Assembly (NCBI RefSeq): GCF_000974445.1
Contig: NZ_BBOJ01000001.1
Span: forward strand, 620,001-684,000
From: Lentzea aerocolonigenes
GTDB taxonomy: Bacteria > Actinomycetota > Actinomycetes > Mycobacteriales > Pseudonocardiaceae
DNA: 64,000 bases
Direction: 5' to 3'
Shown here: in pieces, positions 2,027-12,123 of the stretch
Layout: every line of letters begins with the position of its first letter
Position numbering within the stretch: the first letter of the stretch is position 1
Translations under genes and position numbers: made by a program
Notes under the pieces: generated by a model
Databases searched by the model: none
What the model was told of the DNA's origin: nothing
The model's input: the letters and a program-made list of their open reading frames with translations, nothing else

Positions 2027-4459
2027 TTGAGACCCACCCTGCCCGGCGTCGGGACAGCGGTGGCGGCGCTCGTGTTCGCCGCCGTCCCCGCCGTTGCCGC
2101 ACCCAGCACCGACGCCTTGATCTCCGAGGTCTACGGAGGCGGCGGCAACTCCGGCGCCACGCTCAAGCAGGACTTCGTCGAGCTCGCCAACAAGAGCGCG
2201 AGCGCGATCAGCCTGGACGGCTACAGCGTCCAGTACATCTCGGCCAGCCCCGGTGCGACGACGCAGTGGGGCGTGACCCCGCTCGCCGGTTCGATCGCGC
2301 CCGGCAAGACGTTCCTCGTCGCCGAGGCCAAGGGCACGGGCGGCACCGTCGACCTGCCGACGCCGGACGCCGTCGGCACGATCGCCATGGGCGGCACCAG
2401 CGGCACGATCGCGCTGGTCAACGGCACCGCGCCGCTCACCTGCAAGACGGCGGCCGACTGCGCGGCCGACTCGCGGATCAAGGACCTCGTCGGCTACGGC
2501 ACCGCCGTGGTCAGGGAAGGCACCGCGGCCAACGTCCTGAGCAACACCACGTCGGCGTTCCGCAACATCGAGCTCGGCGACACCGACGACAACGCGACCG
2601 ACTTCAAGGTCGGCGACCCGAACCCGACCAACTCCAAGGGCGAGACGCCGGGCGGCGGCAACCCGGATCCCGACCCCGACCCCGTGCCCGGTGACAAGCG
2701 CATCCACGACATCCAGGGCGTCACGCGCATCTCGCCGCTGCTCGGCCAGAAGGTCAGCAACGTCCCCGGCGTCGTCACCGGCACGCGCGCCACGGGTGAC
2801 CGCGGCTTCTGGATCCAGGACACGGTCAGCCCGGACGCCGACCCGCGCACCAGCGAAGGCGTCTTCGTCTACACGGCCGGCAGCGCGCCGACCGTGGCCG
2901 TCGGCGACAACGTGCTGGTCAGCGGCACGATCGCGGAGTACCGGCCGGGCGGTGAGACGGGCTCCAACCAGACCCTCACCGAGATCACCCAGGCGACCAC
3001 GATCACGGTCTCCAAGGGCAACCCGGTCCCGGCGCCGGTGGTCGTGAAGAACATCCCGACCGGCTACCTGCCCGCGCCCGGCGGCAGCATCGAGCAGCTC
3101 CCGCTGGAGCCGGAGAAGTACGGCCTCGACTACCTCGAGTCGCTCGAAGGCACGCTGGTCCAGGTCAACGACGCCCGCGTCGTCGGCCCGAGCAACTCGT
3201 TCGGCGAGGTCTGGGTGACGGTGAACCCCGACCAGAACAAGAACGAGCGCGGCGGCACCACCTACACCGCCTACGACCAGCCCAACAGCGGCCGGTTGAA
3301 GATCAAGGCGAGCCCGCTGCCCGCGTCGAACGTCGGTGACGTGTTCACCGGCGCGACCGTCGGTGCCATCGAGTACACGAACTTCGGCGGCTACACGCTG
3401 GCTGCTCTGACGCTCGGCACCCACACGTCCTCCAACCTGCAGCGCGAGATCACCGCGCAGCAGAAGGAGAGCGAGCTGTCGGTCGCGACCTACAACGTCG
3501 AGAACCTCGACCCGTCCGACCCGCAGGAGAAGTTCGACCGGCTCGCCGAGGGCGTGACCACGAACCTGCGCAGCCCGGACGTCGTCGTGCTGGAAGAGAT
3601 CCAGGACAACAACGGCGCCACCAACGACGGCACCGTCGCAGCCGACCAGACGCTGCAGAAGTTCTCCGACACGATCGTCGCCAAGGGCGGCCCGCGCTAC
3701 CAGTGGCGGCAGATCGACCCGGAGAACCTCAAGGACGGTGGCGAGCCCGGCGGCAACATCCGCGTCGGCTTCTTCTTCAACCCGCAGCGGGTGTCCTTCG
3801 TGGACCGTCCCGGCGGCGACTTCAAGACCCCGGTCGAGGTCGTCAAGAAGAACGGCCGTGCCGCGCTTTCCGTGTCACCGGGCCGGATCGACCCGCTGAA
3901 CGACGCGTGGGCGAACAGCCGCAAGCCGCTCGCCGGTGAGTTCAAGTTCCGCGGCCGCACGGTCTTCGTGGTCGCGAACCACTTCAACTCCAAGGGTGGC
4001 GACGAGGCGATGCACGGCCGCAACCAGCCGCCGACGCGTTCGTCCGAGGTGCAGCGCGCCAAGCAGGCCGCGGCGCTGAAGACGTTCACCGAGCAGATCC
4101 GCGCGATCGACAAGGGCGCCAACGTGGTCCTCGCGGGCGACCTGAACGACTACCAGTTCTCGCCCGCGGTGAAGGCGCTGACCGGTGACGGCAACCTCAA
4201 GGCGCTGATCGAGACGCTGCCCGTGAACGAGCGGTACAGCTACGTCTTCGAGGGCAACTCGCAGACGCTCGACCACCTGATCATGAGCAGGAACATCACG
4301 CGGTTCAGCTACGACGTGGTGCACATCAACGCCGAGTTCGCTGACCAGGCGAGCGACCACGACCCGCAGATCGTCCGCGCCCGCCCGTCCACGGGTGACG
4401 CGAACATCGACAAGATCGTGTTCGCGCTCGAGGACATCCTCGACTGCCTGAAGAAGTAA
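2027..4459 (+). CDS. Secreted ExeM/NucH-type extracellular nuclease with lamin-tail domain
   Basis: The 810-residue protein starts at TTG, set by a strong Shine-Dalgarno GGAGGAAG (2018-2025). A signal peptide (residues about 1-25, ending AVAA) is followed by a lamin-tail domain (LISEVYGGGGNSGA..DFVELAN, about 28-200), a Pro/Asp linker near 210-225, an OB-like domain (about 226-480) and an endonuclease/exonuclease/phosphatase domain (about 484-795). Catalytic motifs are ATYNVEN, VVVLEEIQDN, NHFNSKGGD, LAGDLNDYQ and ASDHDPQ. This is the architecture of ExeM-like secreted DNases, which degrade extracellular DNA for phosphate or carbon. It is monocistronic, ending at a strong bidirectional hairpin. 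Confidence 0.9.
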   Translation: MRPTLPGVGTAVAALVFAAVPAVAAPSTDALISEVYGGGGNSGATLKQDFVELANKSASAISLDGYSVQYISASPGATTQWGVTPLAGSIAPGKTFLVAEAKGTGGTVDLPTPDAVGTIAMGGTSGTIALVNGTAPLTCKTAADCAADSRIKDLVGYGTAVVREGTAANVLSNTTSAFRNIELGDTDDNATDFKVGDPNPTNSKGETPGGGNPDPDPDPVPGDKRIHDIQGVTRISPLLGQKVSNVPGVVTGTRATGDRGFWIQDTVSPDADPRTSEGVFVYTAGSAPTVAVGDNVLVSGTIAEYRPGGETGSNQTLTEITQATTITVSKGNPVPAPVVVKNIPTGYLPAPGGSIEQLPLEPEKYGLDYLESLEGTLVQVNDARVVGPSNSFGEVWVTVNPDQNKNERGGTTYTAYDQPNSGRLKIKASPLPASNVGDVFTGATVGAIEYTNFGGYTLAALTLGTHTSSNLQREITAQQKESELSVATYNVENLDPSDPQEKFDRLAEGVTTNLRSPDVVVLEEIQDNNGATNDGTVAADQTLQKFSDTIVAKGGPRYQWRQIDPENLKDGGEPGGNIRVGFFFNPQRVSFVDRPGGDFKTPVEVVKKNGRAALSVSPGRIDPLNDAWANSRKPLAGEFKFRGRTVFVVANHFNSKGGDEAMHGRNQPPTRSSEVQRAKQAAALKTFTEQIRAIDKGANVVLAGDLNDYQFSPAVKALTGDGNLKALIETLPVNERYSYVFEGNSQTLDHLIMSRNITRFSYDVVHINAEFADQASDHDPQIVRARPSTGDANIDKIVFALEDILDCLKK

Positions 4460-4467
4460 CCGCTGCT

Positions 4468-4501
4468 CCGCCGCCGCGTCATTCCCCTGACGCGGCGGCG
4501 G
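4468..4501. terminator. Bidirectional 14-bp perfect hairpin terminator
   Basis: CCGCCGCCGCGTCA (4468-4481) pairs perfectly with TGACGCGGCGGCGG (4488-4501) around a 6-nt loop. It separates the convergent nuclease and GPP34 genes. The GPP34 stop codon (complement of 4479-4481) lies inside the stem. Confidence 0.75.
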
Positions 4502-5114
4502 TGGCCGCAGCCGCCACTCCGGCCTGCACCGCCGCGACCGCCCTGCGCACCGCGTCGCCTGCCCAGTTGCCCGCGGCGATCCCCTTCGCACGTTTCTTCA
4601 GCTCGCGCCTGTCGCCGTCGAACACCCGGTGCACGGCGTCCACCGCGTACAGCAGCGTGATCAACGCCCCCGTGCGCTCGTCCGCTCCCCGGTGCCCGGC
4701 CGCGACCTCGCCGACCGCCTCGCGCACCTCACCGTGCGCCCGCTCGTCGGTGATCACGTACCTCTTCGCGGGAAAGATCCCGAGCACCTTCCGCGGTTCC
4801 ACGCGCACGGCACCGCGATCGACCAGCCGCGCGATGACGTTGTCCTGCAACCGCTTCCTGATGCGTTCCACCGCGCGTTGCGGCCTCATCGGCCGGTCGA
4901 ACCGCGACATCGCCTCGTACAGCACCGGATCGTTCAACGGCGTCGGGTCGACGACCTGGAGCTTCTTCCCGTTGGGCTCGAACGCGACGCGCCCCGAGTT
5001 CACCAGCTCGATCAGCACGGCGCCGGCGAGCGCGTTCTCCGCCGGGGAGAAGCCGCTCCGCACCCTGCCGGTCCGCTGGTCGATGAACAGCAGCATGAGG
5101 TCGTCGTGCAACAT
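4479..5114 (-). CDS. GPP34 family phosphoprotein (GOLPH3-like), copy 1
   Basis: This 211-residue protein belongs to the GPP34/GOLPH3 (Vps74) family: it opens with the family hallmark DDLMLLFIDQRTGR, then an ENALAGAVLIELVNSGRV helix, and later GALITLLYAVDAVHRVF near residue 155. Eukaryotic members bind phosphatidylinositol-4-phosphate; the role in actinomycetes is unknown. A second copy lies immediately upstream on the same strand (5162-5815), separated by 47 nt, so they are probably co-transcribed. The C-terminus is Ala-rich and hydrophobic. Confidence 0.85.
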   Translation of the reverse strand: MLHDDLMLLFIDQRTGRVRSGFSPAENALAGAVLIELVNSGRVAFEPNGKKLQVVDPTPLNDPVLYEAMSRFDRPMRPQRAVERIRKRLQDNVIARLVDRGAVRVEPRKVLGIFPAKRYVITDERAHGEVREAVGEVAAGHRGADERTGALITLLYAVDAVHRVFDGDRRELKKRAKGIAAGNWAGDAVRRAVAAVQAGVAAAATAAASGE

Positions 5115-7600: not shown

Positions 7601-8130
7601 TCATGAAGTGGCTGGAGGCGGAACGGCTGGGCGTCGCCGACCTGCTCGAGGACCTGACCGACGACGAGTGGCGGCGCGAGACGCTCTGCGCCGGCTGGAC
7701 GATGCAGGAGATGGCCGCTCACCTGACCACGTCGACCCGCACCGGGTGGCGTGACGTGCTCACGGGAGCGGTGAAGGCGCGGTTCGACTGGAACCGCATG
7801 GAGGACGAGAAGGCTCGCGCGATCGCCGCGCGGTGCACGCGGCCGGAGCTGATCGCGCAGATCAGGGAGACGGCCGGGTCGCCGAAGCGGGCGCCGATGG
7901 CCGCGCCGATCGACCCGTTGGTGGACTTCCTCGTCCACGGCCAGGACATCGCCCGGCCGTTGGGCCGCGTCCGCGAGATGCCGCTCGAACCGGCCCAGGC
8001 CGCCCTGGAGCACGTGCTGAAGAGCCCGTTCTGGGGTGCGCGCAAGCGTTTCCGCGAGTCGGGGGTCCCGGACCTGCCGACCCCCGACCTGCTGATGCTC
8101 GCCACCGGACGTCACATCTCCGGCGCCTGA
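7597..8130 (+). CDS. Mycothiol-dependent maleylpyruvate isomerase family protein (DinB-like)
   Basis: The 177-residue product carries the DinB-like N-terminal domain: LEDLTDDEWRRETLCAGWTMQEMAAHLTTS near residue 18-47 and DFLVHGQDIARPLG near residue 110, with the His residues expected to bind a metal. ATG at 7597 overlaps the sigma-factor stop, making this the third gene of the YCII-sigma-DinB unit and suggesting it acts in the response controlled by that sigma factor. Substrate unknown. The 3' end overlaps the convergent glycosidase gene by 19 nt. Confidence 0.75.
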   Translation: MIMKWLEAERLGVADLLEDLTDDEWRRETLCAGWTMQEMAAHLTTSTRTGWRDVLTGAVKARFDWNRMEDEKARAIAARCTRPELIAQIRETAGSPKRAPMAAPIDPLVDFLVHGQDIARPLGRVREMPLEPAQAALEHVLKSPFWGARKRFRESGVPDLPTPDLLMLATGRHISGA

Positions 8131-9845
8131 TCCAGGAACTTCTCCAGCTTGCCGTCGCCCGTCTTCAGCTTCTTGTCGAGCCGCTTCACCAGCTCGTCGG
8201 AGTCGGCGAAGCGCTCGCGGTTGCCGCCCAGCCCGTCCGCCGTGGCCTGGAGCGCCTTGCCGAGCAGCTCGGACTGGTCGAGCCACGGCGCGGAGTCCGT
8301 GACGAACCCGGGGTGCGCCTTCTCCCGGATCAGCTTCGCGGCGCCGGCCAGCACGTCCGCGTAGGCGCGCAACCCGGCCACCGCGGTTCCCTTGTCCCCG
8401 GCCCGCCACTTCTCCGTGAACTCGTCGAGCTCCCCGGCGAGGCGCGGCGCCGTCCACGAGTTGAGGTCGAAGAACGCCAGCAGCGCCGTCGTCAGCTTCT
8501 CGTCGCCGCCCGCGAGCAGCCGGGCGTAGGCGTCTTCCGAGCGGTGTTCGTCGTACGCCGCGTCGTTCCAGGCGTAGTCGGCCATCTCGAACATCGCGAC
8601 CCGGCTCGCGTAGGCCTGGCTCATGGGGTTCGCGAGGAGCCCCTCGACCTGCAGACCCGGTTCGCGGTCCGAGTACGAGCCCAGGAACAGCCGCCCCGCC
8701 GCGTCCGGGTAGTCGTTGACCGGGTAGTTGTCCCAGATCAGGGTCTTGCGGCCCCACAGCTCCCTGGCGCGCTCGGACTCCTTCCTGGTGATCGCCCTGG
8801 GCACCACCGCGGTGCCGGTCCACATGACGACGACGGACTTGTCCAGGCCGTCGCGGAAGACCTTCTTGTACGGCGTCGGGGTGATGTCGCCGTACTCGGT
8901 GAGCACGGTGATCAGCGGTCCGACGTCCGGCATCTGGTTGCGGATGGTCAGCGCGGTGTCGTTGAGCAGGTCGTTCTGCGCGCGGGCGGCGTTCGTTCGG
9001 TTCGGCGGCCCGTACTCGGCCTGGTCCTCGGCGCAGTTCCACTTCGCGTAGTCGATGTCGTCCAGCAGCAAGGCGAACGACTTGATGCCCGCGTTGTGCA
9101 GCTGCGCGAGCTTGGCCCCGATCGCGTCGCGGTCGGCGTCCTTCGAGTAGCACATGGAGAGGCCTGGAGCGAGTGAGTAGGTGAACTGGACGTGCGAGGC
9201 GGCGGCCCGTTTCGCCAGCTCACCGAGCTCGGCCAGGCGGTCGGCCGGGTAGAGCTCGCGCCAGCGGTCGCGGTGGTACGGGTCGTCCTTGGGCGCGTAC
9301 ACGTACGAGTTGGACTTCACGGAGGCCGCGAAGTCGATCTGGTCCTGCTGCTCGGCGTAGGTCCAGCGCCGTCCGTAGAAGCCCTCGACGATGCCGCGCA
9401 GGCGCAGCGACGGGTGGTCGTCGATCTTCACGCCCAGGACCTTGCCCTGTTTGACCAGCTGGCGGAGGGTCTGCGCGGCGTAGAACGCGCCTGACGGGTC
9501 CGCGCTGGCGATGCTGATCTCGTCCCGCCCGACGTTCAGCGCGTAGCCCTCGGCCGGCAGCGACTTGTCGGTGCGGAACCGAACCTTGAGCTCGCCGTCA
9601 CCGGTGCCACCCGTCAGTGCCTTCTCGACCACCTGACGGGTGATCGCCTCGACGCCACCCTCGACGGTGACGGAGGCAGGGATCGGGACGTCGTCGCCCA
9701 CGCGTTCGCTCGCCTGAGGCGTTGGCCACACGTCCACGTCGCTGGCGCGCTTGGGAGCGGCGGTCTCCCGTGTGGCCCAGAACCCGACCGCACCCGCCGC
9801 CACCAGCACGATCACGGCCACGAAGATCAGGCCTTTTTTGCGCAT
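8112..9845 (-). CDS. GH84-type beta-N-acetylglucosaminidase, membrane-anchored
   Basis: The 577-residue protein starts at the ATG at 9845 (MRKKGLIFVAVIVLVAAGA), a signal anchor at about residues 4-24. A GH20b-like N-terminal domain (about 35-145) leads to the catalytic barrel, marked by LRGIVEGFYGRRWT (about 150), a YVYAPKDDPYHRDRWRELY stretch and the LLLDDID motif near residue 262 that supplies the paired catalytic aspartates of family GH84. It likely removes GlcNAc from glycans or wall fragments outside the cell by substrate-assisted catalysis. The second SOS box is 74 nt upstream of the start. Confidence 0.85.
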   Translation of the reverse strand: MRKKGLIFVAVIVLVAAGAVGFWATRETAAPKRASDVDVWPTPQASERVGDDVPIPASVTVEGGVEAITRQVVEKALTGGTGDGELKVRFRTDKSLPAEGYALNVGRDEISIASADPSGAFYAAQTLRQLVKQGKVLGVKIDDHPSLRLRGIVEGFYGRRWTYAEQQDQIDFAASVKSNSYVYAPKDDPYHRDRWRELYPADRLAELGELAKRAAASHVQFTYSLAPGLSMCYSKDADRDAIGAKLAQLHNAGIKSFALLLDDIDYAKWNCAEDQAEYGPPNRTNAARAQNDLLNDTALTIRNQMPDVGPLITVLTEYGDITPTPYKKVFRDGLDKSVVVMWTGTAVVPRAITRKESERARELWGRKTLIWDNYPVNDYPDAAGRLFLGSYSDREPGLQVEGLLANPMSQAYASRVAMFEMADYAWNDAAYDEHRSEDAYARLLAGGDEKLTTALLAFFDLNSWTAPRLAGELDEFTEKWRAGDKGTAVAGLRAYADVLAGAAKLIREKAHPGFVTDSAPWLDQSELLGKALQATADGLGGNRERFADSDELVKRLDKKLKTGDGKLEKFLDQAPEM

Positions 9846-9918
9846 GATCGCCAGTCTGCACGACTCGGGTCGTGGCCCGGGAGTGTTGTCCACAGGTGGG
9901 GACAACACTGTGGGCAAC

Positions 9919-9934
9919 TCGAACACCCGTTCGA
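9919..9934. promoter_or_regulatory. LexA SOS box (TCGAAC-N4-GTTCGA) upstream of ffs-dnaX
   Basis: TCGAACACCCGTTCGA is a perfect match to the actinobacterial LexA consensus. It sits 15-30 nt upstream of a good -10 element (TACACT, 9949-9954), so it overlaps the -35 region of the SRP RNA/dnaX promoter. It is also 74 nt upstream of the GH84 start on the other strand. Confidence 0.7.
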
Positions 9935-9948
9935 GTCGAACCCTTCGC

Positions 9949-9954
9949 TACACT
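9949..9954 (+). promoter_or_regulatory. ffs: -10 element of the ffs (and possibly dnaX) promoter
   Basis: TACACT matches the TANNNT -10 consensus and ends six bases before the first paired base of the SRP RNA (9961), the right distance for transcription to start at the mature 5' end. No clear TTGACA -35 is visible; that region is occupied by the SOS box. Confidence 0.6.
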
Positions 9955-9958
9955 TGCT

Positions 9959-10049
9959 GCGGACCTCGTGCGGCACACATCTCGCGAACCTCCCCAGGGC
10001 CGGAAGGCAGCAAGGATAAGCGGGCTCTGGTGGGTGCACGGGGTCCCCT
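9959..10049 (+). ncRNA. ffs: Signal recognition particle 4.5S RNA (small bacterial SRP RNA)
   Basis: The sequence folds as a single hairpin: GGACC (from 9961) and CGTGC pair with GCACG and GGTCC (to about 10046), and the apical domain has the conserved core CCAGGGCCGGAAGGCAGCAA, with the GGAA tetraloop region that binds Ffh. A run of five T at 10049-10053 follows the stem and probably ends the transcript. Location just upstream of dnaX is the usual actinobacterial arrangement. Confidence 0.93.
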
Positions 10050-10053
10050 TTTT
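10042..10053 (+). terminator. ffs: End of ffs: closing stem followed by T5
   Basis: The 3' half of the SRP RNA closing stem (GGTCC) is followed by CC and five T residues. This works as an intrinsic terminator, with readthrough possibly feeding dnaX, whose GTG is 31 nt further on. Confidence 0.5.
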
Positions 10054-10083
10054 GTGTCGGTGCCCACCGGTACTGTCTGCGGC

Positions 10084-12123
10084 GTGGCGCTCGCTCTGTA
10101 TCGCAAGTACCGTCCGGCCACGTTCTCCGAGGTCGTCGGCCAGGAGCACGTGACCGATCCCCTGCGCGTCGCCTTGTCGGCGGGCCGGGTGAACCACGCG
10201 TACCTGTTCAGCGGCCCGCGCGGCTGCGGCAAGACGTCGTCCGCCCGCATCCTGGCCCGCTCGCTGAACTGCGTGAAGGGCCCGACACCCGACCCGTGCG
10301 GCGAGTGCAACTCGTGCATCGGCCTGGCGCCGAACGGCACGGGCAGCGTCGACGTGGTGGAGCTCGACGCCGCGTCCCACGGTGGTGTGGAGGACGCCCG
10401 CGAACTCCGTGACAAGGCCTTCTACGCCCCGGCCGAGTCCAAGTACCGCGTCTTCATCATCGACGAGGCCCACATGGTCACCACGCAGGGCTTCAACGCC
10501 CTGCTGAAGATCGTCGAAGAGCCGCCGGACCACCTGATCTTCATCTTCGCCACCACCGAGCCGGACAAGGTCCTCCCGACCATCCGCTCGCGCACGCACC
10601 ACTACCCGTTCCGCCTGATCCCGCCCGGCGTGATGCGCGGCCTGCTCGAACGCAACTGCGCGGCGGAGGGCGTGGCCGTCGAACCGGCCGTCTTCCCGCT
10701 GGTGATCCGCGCGGGCGGCGGCTCGGCCCGCGACACCCAGTCGGTCATGGACCAGCTCCTCTCCGGCGCGGGCCCGGACGGCGTGAAGTACGAGCGGGCC
10801 ATCACGCTCCTCGGAGTCACCGACTCGGCCCTGATCAACGACGTGATCGACGGCCTGGCGGCAGGCGACGGCGCCGCGGTCTTCGGCACCATCGACCGCC
10901 TGGTCGAAGCCGGCCACGACCCCCGCCGCTTCGCCTCGGACCTGCTGGACCGCCTCCGCGACCTGGTCCTGCTCTGCGCCGTCCCGGACGCCGCGGACCG
11001 CAACCTGGTCAGCGCCCCGGAAGACGAGCTGGCCACCATGTCGGCGCAGGCCCAGCGAATCGGCCCGGCGGCCCTCACCCGCTACGCCGAGATCGTCCAC
11101 ACCGGCTTGGTCGAAATGCGCGGCGCCACGGCCCCGCGCCTCCTGCTGGAACTCCTCGTCTCCCGCATGCTGCTTCCGTCGGTGAGCCAGTCGGAAGCAG
11201 CCCTGCTCCAACGCCTGGAACAGCTGGAACGCCGCCCACCAGCAGCAATCGCCGCACCGGGCGAGCCCCAGGCAGCCGCCCCCGCGGGCGGCCCGGTCTT
11301 CACCCGCAAGTCGCAACAGCCGACGGACCCGGCGCCCGCGGAACAGCCGCGCCAGCCCGCGCCCGCACCGGCCCAGGCGGTGGCCCCCGCGCCTCAGGCC
11401 GCCGCTCCCGTTCAGCGTCCGACAGTTCCAAGTCAGCCTGCGCCTGCTCCGGCCGCTCAGCCCCCGGCTGCCGCGCCGACTCCAGTCGCCGCCCCACCCC
11501 AGGCCGCAGCTCCGCCCTCCGAGCCCGCCGCCCCGGCCCCCACCACCGGCGGCATGGACGCGACCGCGGTCCGCCGGGTCTGGTCCGAGCTGCTCGCCGC
11601 GGTCCGCGCCTCCAGCCGCAGCACCGAGGCGATGCTGACCAACGCCATGGTCAGCGAGGTGGACGGCAACGTCGTCACCATCACCCACACCTCGGCCCCC
11701 CTGGCCCGCCGCCTGGCGGAGCCCCGCAACACCGAGGCCATCGCCAACGCCCTGGCCACGGTCCTGGGCGGCACCTGGCAGGTCCGCTGCACCCACGGCA
11801 CTCCCAGCGCCGCCCCACAGGCCGCAGCCCCCGCCAAGGCCCCGCGCCCGGCCCCGACCCGCCCGAGCCAGGCCCAGACCGCCAGGCAGCCCGAGCCCCA
11901 ACGCCAGGCCCCGCGCCCACCGGCAGACGACGTCCCACCGCCCCCGGAACCCCCGGAGCCAGACGAACCCCTCCCGCCGGAACCCGACGACGAAGAGGCG
12001 ATGCTGGCCGAAGCCGCCCGCCCGATCGACCCGGACAGCGTGAACGAGGCCCAAGACCCGGAAGCCGTGATGCTCAAACTCCTGGCCGACGAACTGGGCG
12101 CCCGCCCGCTCAAGAAGGCCTGA
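10084..12123 (+). CDS. dnaX: DNA polymerase III subunit gamma/tau
   Basis: The 679-residue clamp-loader ATPase starts at GTG 10084 (VALALYRKYRPATFSEVVGQ, the universal DnaX N-terminus); the frame is open upstream but runs through ffs. It has Walker A GPRGCGKTSS (44-53), a zinc module with Cys 63, 72, 75 and 78, Walker B IIDEAH (about 125) and an SRC-like sensor TIRSRTHHY. From about residue 395 to 490 and again 565-650 it is Pro/Ala/Gln-rich, flanking a tau domain near 500-560. It loads beta clamps and links polymerase to helicase. The SOS box upstream is unexpected. Confidence 0.97.
   Translation: MALALYRKYRPATFSEVVGQEHVTDPLRVALSAGRVNHAYLFSGPRGCGKTSSARILARSLNCVKGPTPDPCGECNSCIGLAPNGTGSVDVVELDAASHGGVEDARELRDKAFYAPAESKYRVFIIDEAHMVTTQGFNALLKIVEEPPDHLIFIFATTEPDKVLPTIRSRTHHYPFRLIPPGVMRGLLERNCAAEGVAVEPAVFPLVIRAGGGSARDTQSVMDQLLSGAGPDGVKYERAITLLGVTDSALINDVIDGLAAGDGAAVFGTIDRLVEAGHDPRRFASDLLDRLRDLVLLCAVPDAADRNLVSAPEDELATMSAQAQRIGPAALTRYAEIVHTGLVEMRGATAPRLLLELLVSRMLLPSVSQSEAALLQRLEQLERRPPAAIAAPGEPQAAAPAGGPVFTRKSQQPTDPAPAEQPRQPAPAPAQAVAPAPQAAAPVQRPTVPSQPAPAPAAQPPAAAPTPVAAPPQAAAPPSEPAAPAPTTGGMDATAVRRVWSELLAAVRASSRSTEAMLTNAMVSEVDGNVVTITHTSAPLARRLAEPRNTEAIANALATVLGGTWQVRCTHGTPSAAPQAAAPAKAPRPAPTRPSQAQTARQPEPQRQAPRPPADDVPPPPEPPEPDEPLPPEPDDEEAMLAEAARPIDPDSVNEAQDPEAVMLKLLADELGARPLKKA

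Follow-up and report, generated by a model that had tools for sequence, protein, structure and literature searches.

Among described systems, the one closest to the locus reported here is the promoter uvrBp3 of Escherichia coli, where uvrB is repressed by DnaA as well as by LexA and the two proteins compete. DARS1 lies within this promoter, and the LexA site known as LexA-box4 overlaps its DnaA boxes, according to the account in PMC6015884. Both DARS1 and DARS2 have a core of three DnaA boxes, of which box I points the opposite way to boxes II and III (PMC5742627); measured on the E. coli chromosome (NC_000913), boxes I and II are 5 bp apart and boxes II and III 3 bp apart in both elements. 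Joint regulation of uvrB and recN by DnaA and LexA is noted in a review (PMC8203912), and E. coli DnaA is described as preferring pairs of boxes spaced by 2-3 bp (PMC11317965). For actinobacteria, the described LexA regulon of Streptomyces venezuelae includes recA, lexA, dnaE2-dinP, ruvCA, alkB and a radical-SAM gene (PMC9380542).

Neither dnaX nor the RNA of the signal recognition particle (SRP) is mentioned in the main text of the S. venezuelae study (PMC9380542), from which dnaX, ffs, SRP, signal recognition, 4.5S and scRNA are all absent as terms; dnaX, dnaZX, Rv3721c, ffs, SRP and 4.5S are likewise absent from the main text of a Mycobacterium tuberculosis mitomycin C paper (PMC8151990). 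Judged by titles and the beginnings of abstracts, the literature holds no description of LexA control of ffs that we could find. SRP RNA is essential and is usually regarded as the product of a housekeeping gene; we know of no earlier damage-responsive SRP RNA, and ffs of Lentzea would be the first. Here, we describe a conserved SOS box at this gene and argue, mainly from comparison of sequences, that the Lentzea ffs promoter is probably a genus-specific composite module, made up of a trio of DnaA-type boxes, a LexA operator and a -10 element, and controlled by LexA with an input from DnaA.

The window, the whole 64-kb stretch of Lentzea DNA under analysis, spans 620001-684000 of contig C55 and contains two perfect SOS boxes. 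The box at ffs, TCGAACACCCGTTCGA (9919-9934, no strand assigned), fits the palindrome TCGAAC-N4-GTTCGA with 0 mismatches and is a putative LexA operator; the other box, at 1906-1921, differs from it solely in N4 (ACTT versus ACCC). Letters, coordinates and the restriction of the difference to N4 are all exactly as the original prediction gave them. The same prediction placed the box immediately upstream of the ffs -10, TACACT (9949-9954, plus strand), and here the upstream position stands but the immediacy does not, since 14 bp intervene and the box covers the -35 region, not the -10. When up to 2 mismatches are allowed, the window yields 16 matches, compared with 3.68 +/- 2.06 after shuffling, and 0 of 100 shuffles reach 16. 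The 1906-1921 box stands 5' of a gene (2027-4459) whose product, an ExeM/NucH-like secreted nuclease, matches NF033681 below the cut-off; among the genomes listed, G001-G005 have a 16-mer identical to this box at 5.6-6.3 kb from their ffs box.

Perfect boxes are likewise in excess across the 10.69-Mb genome, where there are 13 against 1 match of the reversed-motif control, or 127 against 28 with up to 1 mismatch. Each of 24 Lentzea genomes carries 8 to 15 perfect boxes, as opposed to 0 or 1 when the pattern is reversed. The neighbours of the perfect boxes in this genome, which are simple frame-composition calls confirmed only in part by Pfam or NCBIfam, include a lexA gene (paralogue 1), a dinB-type polymerase gene, an imuA'-imuB-like pair of ORFs, the second of which encodes an IMS-family polymerase, an Rv2578c-family radical SAM gene (L001), a DUF3072 gene and an NMN transporter gene; recA was not located. 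No SOS gene was recognisable among the box neighbours of L002, L006, L008 and L011, and the perfect boxes of L004, in a coding frame, and L009, in the frame of a Vsr-like endonuclease, are not promoter-like. The boxes are of the same 16-bp type as those described for S. venezuelae, where a radical-SAM gene is also among the targets. The Rv2578c-type gene (L001, 3005-4981) contains an intein (NF038136). Around the in-frame box of L009, genes for a NaeI-type endonuclease, the Vsr-like endonuclease and a cytosine methylase are clustered (2082-4911).

LexA itself is encoded twice in this genome, by two TIGR00498 matches that both contain LexA_DNA_bind and Peptidase_S24. The paralogues are found at L138 (C54:180146) and L139 (C52:130330); one has a perfect upstream SOS box, and the other has none, even with 1 mismatch allowed, over the stretch examined. 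A genus-specific LexA paralogue as the cause of the module is ruled out by the presence of at least two lexA matches in 41 of the 60 family genomes searched, 3 of these 41 being Lentzea.

The ffs box is fixed within the genus. All 24 Lentzea genomes of our set, the present one among them, have a match to RF00169, and in every one a perfect SOS box precedes TACACT at a distance of 14 bp. All 12 defined columns of the box are invariant, against 1 of 14 in the spacer and none of the 4 in N4, which takes 5 forms among the 24 genomes; the difference between box and spacer (Fisher p 2.7e-6) is one among related sequences and not among independent events, with 23 of the 24 module sequences distinct. 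A stretch of 88 nt aligns without gaps in all 24. Because the position of the box is fixed in 24/24 genomes, and because its sister boxes adjoin lexA, dinB-type, imuB-like and Rv2578c-type genes, the 9919-9934 box is very probably a LexA operator on the ffs promoter, and ffs is the gene at which the original prediction had located it.

A second copy of the trio and box lies upstream in four genomes, G003, G007, G011 and G022 (loci L034, L026, L142 and L143, respectively), at 57 bp to ~1.8 kb. These copies retain perfect boxes with no ffs -10 adjoining, and they may be young duplicates or additional LexA/DnaA sites. The two copies of G011 flank a GH84 gene, an arrangement that suggests gain or loss of this gene by recombination between modules. 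A pattern consisting of the end of the trio plus the box, with up to 3 mismatches, has a single match in this genome and one or two matches in every genome of the 24; the second matches are near ffs in the same four genomes, whereas G006, G008 and G018 have single 3-mismatch matches elsewhere. With the pattern present only once or twice per genome, a dispersed repeat is ruled out.

Beyond the genus, we sampled the family and the order. In the family sample, ffs was found in 118 of 120 genomes, 5 of them Lentzea, and 70 of the other 113 loci were examined, with every one of the 44 other matching genera represented. Over 250 nt on the upstream side of the SRP core (222 nt in L051), none of these 70 loci has a box or a DnaA-type 9-mer, even with 1 mismatch allowed, and the genera nearest by DnaX are also devoid of the module. 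The order sample contained ffs in 88 of 91 genomes, 11 from the same family; among the other 77, 44 loci were examined, with every one of the 14 other matching families represented, and the 44 contain neither a box at up to 1 mismatch nor a perfect DnaA 9-mer. Sites with 2 mismatches were found in L064 of the family, at -200, and in L174 of the order, neither at the promoter position. Finally, 84,980 species genomes were scanned for the box followed by 13-17 bp, TANACT, 4-9 bp and GGACC, a pattern that misses other spacings. The scan returned 23 stretches, whose records overlap the 24-genome set: 21 titled Lentzea, including one record (L128) that stops before the SRP core, 'Nocardia sp. NRRL S-836', with a module sequence equal to that of the genus member L036, and one Nocardia MAG (L127), with no SRP core near the match. 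As far as examined, the module is Lentzea-specific, and the comparison with relatives on which the original prediction turned has a divided outcome: the box is present across the genus (24/24) and absent from the other genera examined.

Three DnaA-type 9-mers (9886-9917) abut the SOS box on its upstream side; they and the separate dnaX promoter considered below are additions to the original prediction. Box I (9886-9894, plus strand) reads TTGTCCACA, which we take to be the actinobacterial DnaA-box consensus and which it matches plainly and perfectly. Boxes II (9897-9905) and III (9909-9917), both on the minus strand, where they read TTGTCCCCA and TTGCCCACA, have one mismatch each in the window. 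Box I is thus forward and boxes II and III reverse, with gaps of 2 bp (I-II) and 3 bp (II-III), and boxes I and II together form a near-perfect palindrome. The trio aligns gap-free in 24/24 Lentzea genomes and is invariant at 18 of 27 positions; boxes I and II are kept with up to 1 mismatch in all 24 and box III in 21, the exceptions being L026, L036 and L040, in which box III is degenerate (2 mismatches). The head-to-head pair of boxes I and II has its sole 0-mismatch match in this genome at the ffs locus. In the dnaA-dnaN region, a putative oriC (L137, 3406-3604), the stretch of this genome contains no perfect TTGTCCACA; the consensus is found there only as the 1-mismatch forms TTGTCCCCA, the 9-mer of box II, TCGTCCACA, TTGTGCACA and TAGTCCACA. 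The trio is accordingly put forward as a set of putative DnaA sites on the basis of the general actinobacterial consensus. Since dnaA is on the same contig, ~236 kb away, ffs is probably not far from the replication origin. On a different, 72-kb contig, two tandem head-to-head DnaA-type pairs occur near 4271-4312 of L012 (C19:55370-55411), between an ORF and another with a sigma-factor-like translation.

The likeness to uvrBp3/DARS1 is in the orientation of box I opposite to boxes II and III, the 3-bp gap between II and III, and the adjoining LexA site. The differences are that uvrBp3 controls a repair gene, uvrB, whereas the Lentzea module is at the SRP RNA gene; that the gap between boxes I and II is 5 bp in E. 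coli and 2 bp in Lentzea; that the E. coli LexA site is described as weak and overlapping, whereas the Lentzea box is a perfect actinobacterial one that abuts the trio; and that the lineage and the LexA motif are different. The orientation of the boxes is therefore that of a DARS core and the I-II spacing is not; because of this spacing, and because the Lentzea trio is known here from its sequence, we do not file it as a DARS. By analogy, the Lentzea module plausibly works like uvrBp3. Compared with the sites described for the E. coli DnaA regulon, it shares a same-orientation pair (II-III) at 3 bp and the putative role of DnaA as a promoter regulator, and adds a third, head-to-head box and a LexA site; the DnaA consensus is TTATCCACA in E. 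coli as against TTGTCCACA in the Lentzea module.

Three genes lie around the module in the window, and the original prediction considered all of them as targets. The gene ffs, encoding a small bacterial SRP RNA (9958-10052, plus strand; Rfam RF00169, 65 bits), likely has its 5' end near 9961; no consensus -35 was found, no site of sigma-70 type was reported by the promoter scanner, and the fold is of ordinary stability for its composition (z -0.81). The divergent gene for a GH84-type beta-N-acetylglucosaminidase (8112-9845, minus strand; PF07555), with a start codon at 9845 of our choosing, adjoins ffs in just 2 of the 24 Lentzea genomes (~1.5 kb searched on either side) and is thereby ruled out as the target, its proposed control by LexA being unsupported; the module accompanies ffs whatever the upstream gene. 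It is doubtful, too, that the module serves dnaX (DNA polymerase III gamma/tau; 10084-12123, plus strand, GTG start at 10084; NF005846, NF011513 and TIGR02397) through an ffs-dnaX transcript, with LexA and DnaA co-regulating the clamp loader. Such a transcript would accord with the adjacency of the two genes, whose short separation is identical in 19 of 24 Lentzea genomes, and with the terminator scanner, which lists nothing between them. Against it, the SRP RNA closes in a terminal helix followed by a U-run, as seen in fold and sequence, and dnaX has a -10-like element of its own, TACTGT (10071-10076, plus strand), conforming to TAnnnT 13 nt before the GTG in 24/24 Lentzea genomes, including the 5 with a longer ffs-dnaX distance. 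In other genera, TAnnnT is found 12-14 nt before the dnaX start at 36/36 loci for which a start was found, the pattern used having found none at 34 of 70. This leaderless-type element disfavours dnaX as the main target, and control of dnaX as originally proposed was not borne out. The module belongs to ffs, on account of the separate dnaX element, the helix and U-run of the SRP RNA and the rarity of GH84 as a neighbour. Whether LexA matters at ffs is a separate question, as the box could be a decoy or leftover, bound by LexA but outcompeted by the polymerase, with ffs not detectably regulated. The need for ffs to stay high, the location of some LexA sites elsewhere outside promoters, and the perfect boxes of the upstream module copies, away from any ffs -10, would all fit; the conservation of 12/12 positions and of the exact 14-bp spacing in 24/24 genomes argues for selection at the promoter, and we consider a functionless box rather improbable.

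The conserved letters might, on another reading, belong to a protein. In 16 of 24 genomes, the reading frame of an upstream MDMPI-like ORF extends into the module, a stop codon often follows just past the box, and the upstream duplicate modules likewise follow an MDMPI-like gene, all of which could be expected if the module were kept as the C-terminal tail of this protein and the SOS box were incidental. In those 16 genomes, however, the third codon positions are invariant in 15/15 module codons as against 4/27 just upstream (p 3.9e-8; L037, in which the module is out of that register, was left out), and the upstream codons with an invariant amino acid keep their third base in only 3 of 12 cases. 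A longer upstream stretch, with the register that far up unchecked, gives 6/57 invariant third positions (p 4.7e-11), and four-fold sites alone are uninformative (4/4 versus 0/1, p 0.2, in a set that includes the out-of-register L037). Furthermore, the amino acid encoded by the N4 codon varies, and the module is kept where the ffs-adjacent copy is not an MDMPI-like tail. The pattern indicates that the constraint acts on DNA, and retention as a protein tail is highly improbable. A more serious, if still unlikely, alternative accepts the palindrome as a LexA operator and assigns the trio to another regulator. The dnaA-dnaN region has TTGTCCACA at 1 mismatch only, and the near-perfect palindrome of boxes I and II is of the kind bound by dimeric regulators; conversely, box I is a plain actinobacterial DnaA 9-mer, and box II equals a 9-mer of the dnaA-dnaN region. 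Box III, moreover, follows box II in the same orientation at 3 bp, within the spacing that E. coli DnaA is described as preferring (PMC11317965).

The reading that we prefer, a composite module controlled by LexA with DnaA input, would operate as follows. In an undamaged cell, a LexA dimer would occupy about -42 to -27 relative to the ffs start, over the -35, and limit access of RNA polymerase; RecA-triggered cleavage of LexA would then lead to more SRP RNA. With an RNA that is essential and normally abundant, such repression could only be partial. DnaA, at about -75 to -44, would provide a second, replication-linked input, and would most likely cooperate or compete with LexA, as at E. coli uvrBp3/DARS1. 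The dnaX gene would be driven mainly by its own leaderless-type promoter and be at most a secondary target through read-through, and GH84 would not be a conserved target. Counting against the composite module are the degeneration of box III in 3/24 genomes, the lack of a sigma-70-type site, the in-frame overlap in 16/24, the in-frame boxes of L004 and L009 and the four upstream copies without an ffs -10.

A bolder evolutionary scenario, which we regard as a long shot, is that a DnaA-exchange element resembling DARS1, fused to a LexA operator, arose a single time in the ancestor of Lentzea, at the promoter of the SRP RNA. If so, a single module would couple DNA damage, the nucleotide state of DnaA and replication initiation, and the targeting of membrane proteins, and would stand beside E. 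coli uvrBp3/DARS1 as its independently evolved actinobacterial equivalent.

The box is real and conserved, and regulation of ffs by LexA and DnaA is a prediction. If our reading is correct, Lentzea provides a second promoter shared by DnaA and LexA, apparently independent of the first, with the three-box orientation of DARS1. Such an arrangement suggests that, in this genus, signals of DNA damage and of replication would reach the protein-export machinery.
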